Program-made: the position numbers and the translations under genes
Assembly (NCBI GenBank): GCA_025526935.1
Contig: JAHLKD010000020.1
Span: 62,001 to 126,000, forward strand
DNA from: Cladochytrium replicatum
Lineage: Eukaryota > Chytridiomycota > Chytridiomycetes > Cladochytriales > Cladochytriaceae
Length of the DNA: 64,000 bases
Direction of reading: 5' to 3'
In this document: positions 37,259 to 42,422 of the stretch, piece after piece
Layout: the number at the start of each line of letters is the position of its first letter
Numbering within the stretch: position 1 is the first letter of the stretch
Notes under the pieces: model-generated
The model's database searches: none
What the model was told of the DNA's origin: nothing
The model's input: the letters and a program-made list of their open reading frames with translations, nothing else

Positions 37259-39213
37259 TTATTCACTTGCAATTTTTTGCCACTCGCAACACGACATTGG
37301 AAAGACGCCTCGGACTGGCCCAGTCTCCGTAACTCGGGACAGGTTAGCACCAAAAGCAAATCCGTCATCAAACTCTGCTGCTACGGCAATAACATCGCCG
37401 GGTCGAAGCACCATCTCGTCGGCATGCATTGGCGAGTACGTACGAACTGCTACCGCTTCGGCCCAAAACTCAAAAATACGCACGGGTCTTGTCCCTGCCT
37501 CGGTGCCCGACGCAGGTACGACAGGTTGCGCTGACCCTCCGTCTGCTCGCTCGGCGAGCCATACCGAATCCGTCGAGTGCTGATGTTGTTGCTGCAGCAA
37601 CCAGGTCTGCACAATACTCGAGGATCGTCGATGTGGTAGGTGAGCACCAGACGTAGCGGCGGGAAGTTCCTCTGTTTCAGGTGCCTCCCGTTCCGGCGAA
37701 CCACAAATCACGAGGGGAAACACACCAACGTCTCCCGTGGTAAGATTTTGTCCTCGTCCCCATCCGGTTTGCCACGAATGGTGCAGCTGTATCAAGTCGT
37801 CGACATTCACGATGAGCTCGTCGTCGTTCGATGGTATGTACTCAAGAACAGCGCGTAGAACAGGTGCGGCGCGTGGAGGATCAGAGGATAAGTGTTCGCT
37901 GCTTTCGCCTCCGGTGGTGCTACTGTAGACAATGGGCCGGGGACCATGGATGACATTGGAGCGGTAGTTGCGATACTGGAGGAATAAACGTGCGGCTACG
38001 TCGATCGCAGGTGGTGGATTTTCGTTGGGTCCGCGCAAAGGTCTTGGACTATCCGTATCTCCAGGTGAAGTGCCAGGATTCGTAACTATAGAAACCTCTT
38101 GAAGAGGCATTCCATCTCCGGTCTTTGGTCGTTGATTTCTCCTTAGATTCGCAGGTTGTCTTCGATTCGCTGAATAAACAGTCATTCTAATTGGTATCGT
38201 CCTTGGAGGCTCGCAAAAATCCTACCTTCCAATCGAAGAACATTGCGGAACATTGACAAAAATGCAAAAGCAAAGACGAGGTGGATCCCAAGCATCGAGT
38301 TCTGCGCGAAGGTGATGGCGATAAAGTATCGCCGTGGGACTGGCGTAAGGAGGAAGGACAAGGCAATCGCGTCCACAAGCATCAGGCCAAAGAAAAGCAT
38401 CATCAATGTGCGATTCGTTCTGACCAGCTTTGGGAACACACGACGAAGTGTCCCCATGCAACCACCTCGGTCACCCGGATGATCAGATGAATCTAAAAAC
38501 ACCACCCGCTTGTTCGCAACGGTCGCCCACACCATGGAAAATCCGACCACGATCTCAAGCACGCCAGCAACGCACCCTGAAAGTTAAGTTTTATGATGAT
38601 TCATCGTGCCAATTCCGAATGCAGACATACAGAACAAGGAATTCATAAATTGTAGGAAGGGATACCGGTACTCGAACACAAATGCACAGGATGTGAAGAG
38701 CCCGACTGCAGCCGAGAGTCCAACGAACGCCGTCAGTGCCGGCATGGTCCACTTAGGTAGCCCGAATCCTTTTGCAAACGGGGAGAAACGATCCAGGGTT
38801 GTCAGGACGAACGTGAGCCCGCATCCCAGGAATAAGGCTGTTCTAATGCAGCCAGTCACCTTGGTCTCCAGTAGGACATCGGAAGGGTGAACAATAAAGT
38901 CATGAGCTTCTTCCGTGACTCGCTGGTAGTACCGAAACGTCATATCCAACGGCCAATGACATAGAAAGAGGCTTGATTCCAAAAAGTCAATGGATGGTGC
39001 CAAAATTGCAATGGTGGATCGCTCGGAGTACCTCAATGCGACGGTTATGAGTAAATGAAATCGCGATCCTACTGGACTTGCGCCTGATCCCATATTTGAC
39101 ACATGCAGCAGGAGATTGATAACGACGAGAAAACACACCAGAAAGCTGAAGAGCACGCCTGCGACGTCAAACGCTCCCAGCGATATTTCTCCGAGTCTGA
39201 CCGACCAATCCAT
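37259..39213 (-). CDS. Polytopic membrane protein with two C-terminal SH3 domains
   Basis: Three exons (38631..39213, 38226..38576, 37259..38169) give 614 residues. The N-terminal half holds six to seven hydrophobic helices, among them FDVAGVLFSFLVCFLVVINL, LFLGCGLTFVLTTL, LTAFVGLSAAVGLFTSC, VLEIVVGFSMVWATVA and LMMLFFGLMLVDAIALSFLL. The C-terminal half, after a basic Pro-rich linker, has SH3-1 (AVLEYIPSNDDELIVNVDDL ... GWGRG ... GVFP, about 365-415) and SH3-2 (AVRTYSPMHADEMVLRPGDV ... DDGFAFGANLS ... GVFPMSC, at the extreme end). Sho1, the fungal osmosensor, has a similar membrane-then-SH3 plan with four helices and one SH3. The fusion depends on a 56-nt intron (38170..38225; GTAGGA..CAG); if retained, the membrane part ends at a stop. 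Family unrecognised. Confidence 0.7.
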
Positions 39214-39446: not shown

Positions 39447-42422
39447 TCACAGCATAGCTTTCTCGGACGACTTGTCGGATGTTGTCGCAGCACTGACAGT
39501 TGCGCCAGTGTACGCAATAACAGCGCTGTTTGCACTAGCTTGCGTTTGGGTCGGTGCGATCCCTAGTCGCTCCTCGAGCGCTGCAATATCAAGCGTAGTT
39601 TTGATCAGAGAATCAGGGTTCAACGAGATCGAGTTGATCCCTTGCTCAACCAAGAACCGTGCAAAGTCGGGGAAATCGGATGGCGCTTGTCCACAGATAC
39701 CAATCTTCACGCCGTTGCGGCGTGCCGTCGCGATCACCATGCGCACCATCTCCTTAACTGCATTGTTTCGCTCATCGAAGAGGTGCGCGATGAGCCCGGA
39801 GTCGCGGTCGAGACCGAGCGTGAGCTGAGTCAGATCGTTCGAGCCGATCGAGAAACCGTCGAAGACCTTTGCAAATTCGTCGGCCAAGATGACGTTCGAC
39901 GGGACCTCGCACATGACATAGACTTGGAGACCGTCCTGGCCGCGCTGGAGGCCGTTCGCTGCCATTTCGGCCAAAACTTTGCGACCCTCGTCCGGGGTTC
40001 GGCAGAATGGAATCATGACGATTACTGGGGAGGTGATGTCAGCAAAAGAGTTGGCGCCCCGAACGGAAATCTGAACTCACCATTCTTCAATCCCATCTCC
40101 ATGCGGACCTTGACAAAAGCCTGGCACTCCAGAGCGAATGCCGCTCGGAACTTGGGGTCATAGTAACGAGAAGCACCACGCCAACCGATCATGGGGTTTT
40201 CTTCCAATGGTTCGAATTCCCTTCCACCAAGCTACAATAGCAATATGGTTAGTATTTCACAGGCGAGTCGTTCACAATATGTTTTCACTTACCAAGTTGG
40301 CGTACTCATTACTCTTGAAATCACTCATGCGAACAATAACCGGGCGTGGGTGCATTGCAGCCGCGATCGTTGCAATACCGCTAGCCAATCGGTCGACGAA
40401 GAACTGGGCTTTCGCGTTGTCTGCATACAATGGTGTCATCTTCGCGATCTGGCTAACAGCAGAAGGATCCCGGAGGTTAGGGAAGTTCATCAATGCAAGA
40501 GGGTGGATCTTGACGTGGTTAGCGATGATGAACTCGAGACGCGCGAGACCAACGCCTTGAGCCGGGATCTTGGAGAGGGCAAAAGCCTCTGATGGGTTTC
40601 CGATGTTCATGAGGAGCTGTGTGCGAGTTTGCGGGATGTTGTCGATTCTTACTTCTTCGCGACGGAATGGAACGAGTCCGCCGTAAATGAACCCAGTCTC
40701 GCCTTGCGAACAGACGATACTGACATCGACGCCTGTTTGGATTGCTTCCGTGGCGTTACCGCATCCTACGACAGCTTAACAAAGACCAAACTTTCAGGCA
40801 TTATTTCCGAAGCATGTCTACAATACATACCAGGAATACCGAGTTCACGCGCAATAATTGCGGCGTGACAAGTACGTCCACCAACTGAAGTGACAATAGC
40901 TCCAGCCTTCTTCATGATTGGCTCCCAGTCTATTTGACAAGAATGTCAGTCACCTCATAGCATGCACCTTGCTTTACGCACCAGGGTCAGTCCTCTGCGT
41001 TACAAGGACCTCTCCGTCCTTGAATGATGCCATCTGAGATGGATCCGAAATGACCCGTGCACGACCTTGGCCAATGCCAGAACCAACTGCAACACCAGAT
41101 GTAAGAATTGGGTGCGGGCCACCTTTTGGAAGCTCGAGGTGATATGTAACGAGCACGTCTCCTTCATGCTTGTGTGCCATTTGACTCTGAACAGTCTCGG
41201 GACGTGCCTGGACGATGAAGAGCTGGCCGGAGAGACCGTCCACAGCCCATTCCATGTCCATTGGCGTCCAATGGCCGTGAAGACCAGAGTAGTGGTCCTC
41301 GATGATGCACGCCCATCTCGCAAGGATGAGGATCTGTTCGTCGGTAAGAGCAAAGCGATTTCTGTCCTGGATGGGAACACTAATGTTGCCATGTAAAGAA
41401 TTGGATTCGAATCTCTCTGGAATTACTCACGGGATGTTTGATGTGCCCCTGCTGCCCTTCGATTGGTCGTAAATCATCTTTTGCTCCTTAGAACCGAGCT
41501 TCCTTTCCACGATGGGTTTGTAACCTTGCAAAAGCGTGGGCTTGAATACGACGTACTCGTCTGGATTGACGCTGCCCTGGACAATGTTTTCACCAAGACC
41601 GTAACTTGCATTGATGACCACGGTGTCCTTGAAACCCGTCTCGGTATCGATTGAGAACATAACACCACTTGCAGCGAGATCCGAGCGGACCATGAGCTGA
41701 ATTCCGACTGAAAGTTGCACTAGGAAGTGGTCAAAGTTTTTGACCTGACGATACGAGATCGCACGATCGGTAAACAGAGATGCGAAACACCGATGTACGG
41801 CCTCGACGATGGCGTGTTCACCACGGATGTTGAGATACGTGTCTTGTTGACCTGCGAACGACGCGTCCGGAAGATCCTCTGCGGTTGCGGAGGAGCGTAC
41901 GGCGCAATCAAGCTCGGCACCACCCCGGTGTGGGCCTCCGAAGCGGTTGCACATTTCTCGGTAGGAGCAAACGATGGCTTCACCGAGATCCTTGGGGAAT
42001 GGAGTCTCGAGGATAATTTGACGGGCAAGGTTTCCGGCGTGGGCGAGTGCATTGACATCGGATACATCAAGGGATCCGAGAATTTCTCTGAGTCGAGCTT
42101 CGATGCCGGCTTGCTGGACAAAGTATTGGTATGCATAGGATGTTGTTGCAAAGCCGCCAGGGACGGAAATGCCTTTGTGGGTGAGCTGTATAGGATCACG
42201 GGGGGTTAGCGCATGAGCAGGAGAATTTGGGAATACATACAGTTCGGATCATTTCACCAAGTGATGCGTTTTTGCCTGGGGAGGATCCGTTGGGATCAGA
42301 TATTCAAATGGAATACTTGTCAAAAATCACGTACCACCGACGATTGCAATGTCCTTCAATCCGACCTCCTCGAACCACAGAACCAGCGGTTGAGAGTGAC
42401 CATTTGCGATAGTTCCAGCCAT
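39447..42422 (-). CDS. ppsA: Phosphoenolpyruvate synthase (pyruvate, water dikinase), bacterial type
   Basis: A multi-exon minus-strand gene from ATG 42422 to a stop at 39447 encodes about 800 residues, the usual length of PpsA. It makes PEP from pyruvate, ATP and water. In order: [13 protein letters not shown] and [12 protein letters not shown] (nucleotide-binding start), [20 protein letters not shown] (ATP-grasp motif), [20 protein letters not shown], the swivelling domain with [20 protein letters not shown] (phospho-acceptor His), then the PEP-binding domain with [20 protein letters not shown] and [19 protein letters not shown] (catalytic Cys). All catalytic motifs look intact. Most fungi use PEP carboxykinase alone, so the gene may be an old acquisition from bacteria; introns show it is native to this genome. 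Confidence 0.93.

Follow-up and report, generated by a model that had tools for sequence, protein, structure and literature searches.

Sho1 carries a single C-terminal cytosolic SH3 domain, and in the Fus1-like plan a single-pass membrane protein is joined to an SH3 domain. Among seven-helix proteins, the families that serve for comparison here are the class A and class C GPCRs and the fungal Git3 and Pth11-like proteins. In the excerpts of PMC4411306, Sho1 is described as an osmosensor and scaffold of the yeast HOG pathway, a four-helix protein that senses osmolarity and binds Ste50 as well as the membrane proteins Opy2 and Hkr1. The excerpts of PMC4046227 describe BeGC1 of Blastocladiella, a fusion of a rhodopsin with a guanylyl cyclase.

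We analyzed a window of 64,000 nucleotides (contig C20, 62001–126000) from a 50.5-Mb genome. A single minus-strand gene (39213–37259; all coordinates are those of the window unless a contig is named) encodes both a membrane domain and two SH3 domains. Its product, here called the window copy, belongs to a family of paralogues. Like Sho1, which is both sensor and scaffold, the window copy is a multi-pass membrane protein with SH3 domains, predicted to be cytosolic. Going by the descriptions, the two are set apart by their numbers of helices and SH3 domains: four and one in Sho1, seven and two in the window copy. The window copy was not assigned to Sho1, because it shows seven hydropathy peaks rather than four helices and carries a second SH3 domain. 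A single SH3 domain, as in Sho1, is found in four other copies; binding of Pbs2, along with Ste50, Opy2, and Hkr1, is a feature of Sho1. A sequence-only reading of this locus had named Sho1 as the nearest known plan, and in its essentials, a multi-pass membrane part followed by an SH3 tail, this comparison holds.

The Fus1-like plan shares the membrane-tethered SH3 domain with the window copy, but has one helix instead of seven and a different membrane part. Similarly, in BeGC1, from a zoosporic fungus, a multi-helix sensor is joined directly to its signalling output, but that output is an enzyme and the sensor a microbial rhodopsin. No seven-helix protein with an SH3 domain appeared in the titles and abstract openings of the open PMC papers listed, as distinct from subscription papers and fungal proteome annotations, nor in the excerpts of PMC4411306, PMC4046227, and PMC10406608. 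The protein may be listed elsewhere as a 'hypothetical protein'; it would be a multi-pass membrane and SH3 sensor or scaffold with an undescribed membrane domain.

Gene model and introns

The gene model computed here starts at an ATG at 39213 and has a stop codon ending at 37259, both of which had been read correctly from the window sequence. It has four exons and encodes 594 residues with seven predicted helices. Exon 1 (39032–39213), defined by spliced alignment with paralogues, encodes a short N-terminus, helix 1, and the initial part of helix 2. Intron A (39031–38972; 60 nt, phase 2, GTACTC...ATCAAG) falls within helix 2, and exon 2 (38631–38971) encodes the remainder of this helix, helices 3 and 4, and the beginning of helix 5. 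After intron B (38630–38577; 54 nt, phase 1), exon 3 (38226–38576) provides the remainder of helix 5, a long basic loop, and helices 6 and 7. Intron C (38225–38170; 56 nt, phase 1) separates the membrane half from exon 4 (37259–38169), which encodes the cytosolic tail with both SH3 domains and the stop. The gene upstream (39447–42248, minus strand) has PEP-utilizers_C and PPDK_N domains and is probably a phosphoenolpyruvate synthase.

Proteins of eight paralogues (c82c left out) were mapped to the window DNA, and introns A and B were recovered with all eight. Intron C was placed exactly with five of the eight (c28, c82a, c82d, c82e, and c130b). With c82b and c2 the donor was common and the acceptor lay later, and the c130a query, which consists of the membrane piece only, ends ahead of the intron. 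One or two additional gap-like 'introns' that c28 gave in the tail, a region of poor match, were discounted. Intron B is located 5 nt from the second intron of the paralogues, which is in phase 0. The sequence-only reading had proposed intron C with canonical ends (GTAGGA...ATTCAG), as these alignments bear out, and it had also placed intron B correctly.

Intron A had been overlooked, since its length is divisible by three and it contains no stop, which allows it to escape open reading frame analysis. The resulting 614-residue model has a second hydrophobic peak (residues 67–85) that is largely encoded by the intron. Homology-guided spliced alignment revealed a short phase-2 intron (49–59 nt) inside helix 2 in all nine paralogues. 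With c82b and the corrected window protein as queries the placement is consistent, while with the 614-residue query the aligner reads through this intron in c82d and c82e and places it elsewhere in c28 and c2. In an alignment without c82c, the helix-2 intron occupies the same position, column 64, in the window copy and eight paralogues. We rejected the 614-residue model, as these paralogue alignments place an intron in helix 2. With intron A real, the protein has 594 residues and seven predicted helices, and an earlier count of six or seven is narrowed to seven, the multi-pass character standing.

The seven-helix membrane domain

The membrane domain (38266–39165, with introns A and B inside; residues 17–278 of the 594-residue model) was delimited by Kyte-Doolittle hydropathy averaged over nine aligned copies (19-residue window, threshold 1.0). 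Seven peaks were found, at window-copy residues 17–35, 55–73, 99–117, 139–157, 172–190, 232–250, and 260–278, in agreement with the multi-helix N-terminal half proposed earlier. In all nine copies, lysine and arginine are more numerous on the side opposite the N-terminus; the window copy has 16 in 99 residues there versus 7 in 64, a bias that is modest by density. The hydropathy and charge bias of the nine copies together predict that the N-terminus is outside and the SH3 tail in the cytosol.

Counting the start methionine, 28 residues are invariant; the predicted cytosolic half has 19 of them and the outer half 9. Conservation averages 0.613 on the cytosolic and 0.571 on the outer half, a difference that is not significant (one-sided p = 0.074). 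Among the loops, mean conservation is highest in the predicted cytosolic one that follows helix 3 (0.735), which carries the motif L[DN]RFxPF, encoded in exon 2 3' of helix 3 and defined by the nine-copy alignment, and in the stretch beyond helix 7 (0.722).

The membrane half of the window copy has no match in Pfam. Across nine members, Pfam searches up to E 10 yielded weak, scattered matches to 14 families, none of them a GPCR family, with HMMER filters that discard most weak matches even at this threshold. The best of them (PF25392, a mechanosensitive-channel helix; E 0.0094) came from a single member of the nine. No PDB chain matched the membrane-domain profile at E ≤ 10. Pattern searches gave 26 matches in viral contigs and 25 in prokaryote genomes, with no relative confirmed in either. 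As judged by these profile searches, the membrane domain has nothing convincing in Pfam or the PDB and could be placed in none of the families that these libraries describe.

Some features of this domain resemble those of the GPCR superfamily. By prediction from the nine copies it has seven helices, an external N-terminus, and an internal C-terminus, and its third cytosolic loop is long and basic. The L[DN]RF sequence conserved where helix 3 meets the cytosol resembles the (D/E)R(Y/F) motif of GPCRs, and G-alpha (31 stretches) and class C GPCRs (24 stretches) are both matched in the genome, so that the machinery seems to exist. The protein might be a divergent GPCR acting through heterotrimeric G proteins, its SH3 tail being a regulatory add-on. 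We consider this unlikely and did not assign the protein to the GPCRs, as no GPCR profile was matched in the Pfam and PDB searches above. Unlike GPCRs, the window copy has a two-SH3 tail and a short N-terminus. Furthermore, no NPxxY-like motif is seen by eye in helix 7, and no cysteine is invariant.

A seven-helix bundle without a family assignment would also be compatible with a transporter, a channel, or a structural role, perhaps in the cell wall or zoospore cortex, with the SH3 domains doing no more than holding the protein in place on the actin cortex. The weak PF25392 match and the recurrence of single-pass membrane proteins with SH3 domains in this genome point in that direction. However, the match covers one helix in one member, and several invariant positions lie in predicted cytosolic loops, so we regard a role of this kind as rather improbable.

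The SH3 tail and the paralogue family

Two SH3 domains had been proposed in the tail, and Pfam detects two, with whole-protein scores above its cut-offs. In the 614-residue model, SH3_9 (E 6.9e-12; 45.5 bits, cut-off 30), SH3_1 (29 bits, cut-off 22.9), and SH3_2 (26.1 bits, cut-off 21.8) each match two stretches; in the 303-residue tail alone, SH3_9 and SH3_2 match two stretches and SH3_1 one. Among solved SH3 domains, the one in JIP2 comes closest in sequence (E 3.1e-6); the similarity is weak and gives little indication of partners. AlphaFold2 prediction of the SH3 exon alone had a pLDDT of 31.2.

The groove tryptophan of SH3 domains is important for binding proline-containing ligands. It is kept in SH3-1 (37715–37852; residues 398–443, or 418–463 in the 614-residue model) in all seven aligned copies, and SH3-1 looks conventional. 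In SH3-2 (37283–37453; residues 531–587, or 551–607 in the 614-residue model), it is replaced by phenylalanine or tyrosine in four of four aligned copies, phenylalanine being found in the window copy and in c130b too. This substitution suggests that SH3-2 is a conserved module of its own, probably non-canonical, which may not bind ordinary proline-rich ligands. The tail of the window copy contains no textbook SH3-ligand motif, and other tails contain one class II motif (c82e) and one class I motif (c28); this scarcity leaves self-binding without support.

A protein search of the genome identified at least ten copies, including the window copy; the number is a lower bound, as such searches score the best candidates only, and two fragments (C130:28160 and C114:27784) were kept out of it. 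The nine paralogues consist of five in tandem on contig C82 (c82a–c82e), two on C130 (c130a and c130b), one on C28 (c28), and one on C2 (c2). The membrane domain of the window copy is 32–42% identical to those of the eight aligned paralogues. The ninth, c82c, was omitted from the nine-copy alignment because its 5' part and SH3 domain are in shifted frames.

By Pfam analysis of the tails, five copies have two SH3 domains (window copy, c82a, c82d, c82e, and c130b), with two stretches matched in c82e by SH3_9 only and in c82d by SH3_9 and SH3_1. One SH3 domain was found in c82b, c130a, c82c, and c28, the match in c28 being under the curated cut-off (19 bits vs 22.9). No SH3 domain was found in c2 in a three-frame reading of 1.7 kb downstream, which suggests that the bundle may do something alone. 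The membrane and SH3 parts occur in different frames in c82c (C82:119635–121070) and c130a (C130:26134–27705); c82c looks like a decaying copy, and c130a may have an intron between the two parts.

In four paralogues, a single open frame spans everything from inside helix 5 through the second SH3 domain (c82a, 541 amino acids; c130b, 556; c82e, 539; c82d, 683), and no intron needs to be assumed between the halves. By the evidence of these frames, the fusion of membrane and SH3 parts is real, independent of the 56-nt intron. Selection was computed for one pair, c82a and c130b (dS 0.80, dN 0.053, NG86). Over the whole comparison the dN/dS ratio is 0.07; by part, it is 0.05 in the membrane domain, 0.04 in SH3-1, 0.03 in SH3-2, 0.08 in linker 1, and 0.18 in linker 2. 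In this pair, to which the result applies, selection keeps both modules in one reading frame. The SH3 E-values, the like-built paralogues, and this purifying selection place the architecture beyond chance. Although retention of intron C would bring in an in-frame TAG after 14 residues, ending a membrane protein there and leaving a separate SH3 protein, such a pair of adjacent genes was rejected as highly improbable, given the four single-frame paralogues, the five of eight paralogue proteins that map exactly across intron C, and the similar constraint on the two halves in the c82a/c130b pair, and the earlier proposal of one protein with a double SH3 tail stands.

Several SH3 genes also occur in close pairs across contigs (C82/C130, C7/C72, C112/C7, C14/C38, and C37/C32). 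With a dS of 0.80, one C82/C130 pair is too diverged for alleles, which suggests an old segmental or whole-genome duplication. Other SH3-encoding frames were inspected by eye, and seven of 15 (L031, L035, L038, L039, L045, L046, and L049) appear to combine a single-pass membrane segment with one SH3 domain, L035 and L049 having additional hydrophobic peaks. Two of these, L031 on C82 and L035 on C130, lie no more than about 10 kb from the seven-helix arrays. If the seven are as they seem, docking by membrane-tethered SH3 domains is a recurrent arrangement in this organism. Four related long frames (L040, L041, L044, and L050) have, by eye, an SH3 domain inside a flavin-reductase-like region; for L040, Pfam returned SH3 families only, just under cut-offs. 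Another frame (L043:1912–3513) has a weak match to an arrestin N-domain (E 0.0017) and a C-terminal SH3 match (E 5.9e-6), both under cut-off.

A possible sensor or scaffold

We lean slightly toward the view that the window copy is a seven-helix sensor or scaffold that works like Sho1, one of at least ten paralogues whose tails usually carry SH3 domains. The bundle, with its N-terminus outside and C-terminus inside, would sense or anchor something at a membrane, possibly the plasma membrane, and the cytosolic tail would recruit partners through SH3-1 and SH3-2. As in Sho1, docking of an effector complex would be direct and not solely by way of a G protein, with a larger bundle than that of Sho1 doing the sensing and two SH3 domains docking the effectors. 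Any partners and pathway would be putative, as would a link to actin or MAPK. An earlier description of the protein as receptor- or scaffold-like is consistent with the predicted topology, but finds no convincing relative of the membrane domain in Pfam or the PDB to lean on. More tentatively, the family could be an undescribed class of seven-helix receptors, expanded in tandem in a zoosporic fungus and equipped with its own SH3 adaptors, that passes a signal from outside the cell straight to effectors of the actin or MAPK systems.

Strong matches in the genome include a radial spoke protein (E 2.9e-47), matched in none of 14 control genomes, and chitin synthase (E 1.7e-226), for which four of the 14, all bacterial, also pass the cut-off. 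These matches are expected of a flagellated fungus and make the designation 'chytrid' plausible. Little is known about sensing and about the steering of actin-rich zoospores in flagellated fungi. A conserved family of the seven-helix and SH3 kind would offer a specific candidate for coupling the membrane directly to the cytoskeleton or to MAP kinases. The plan of Sho1, a multi-pass bundle joined to an SH3 domain, would then have arisen in more than one form.
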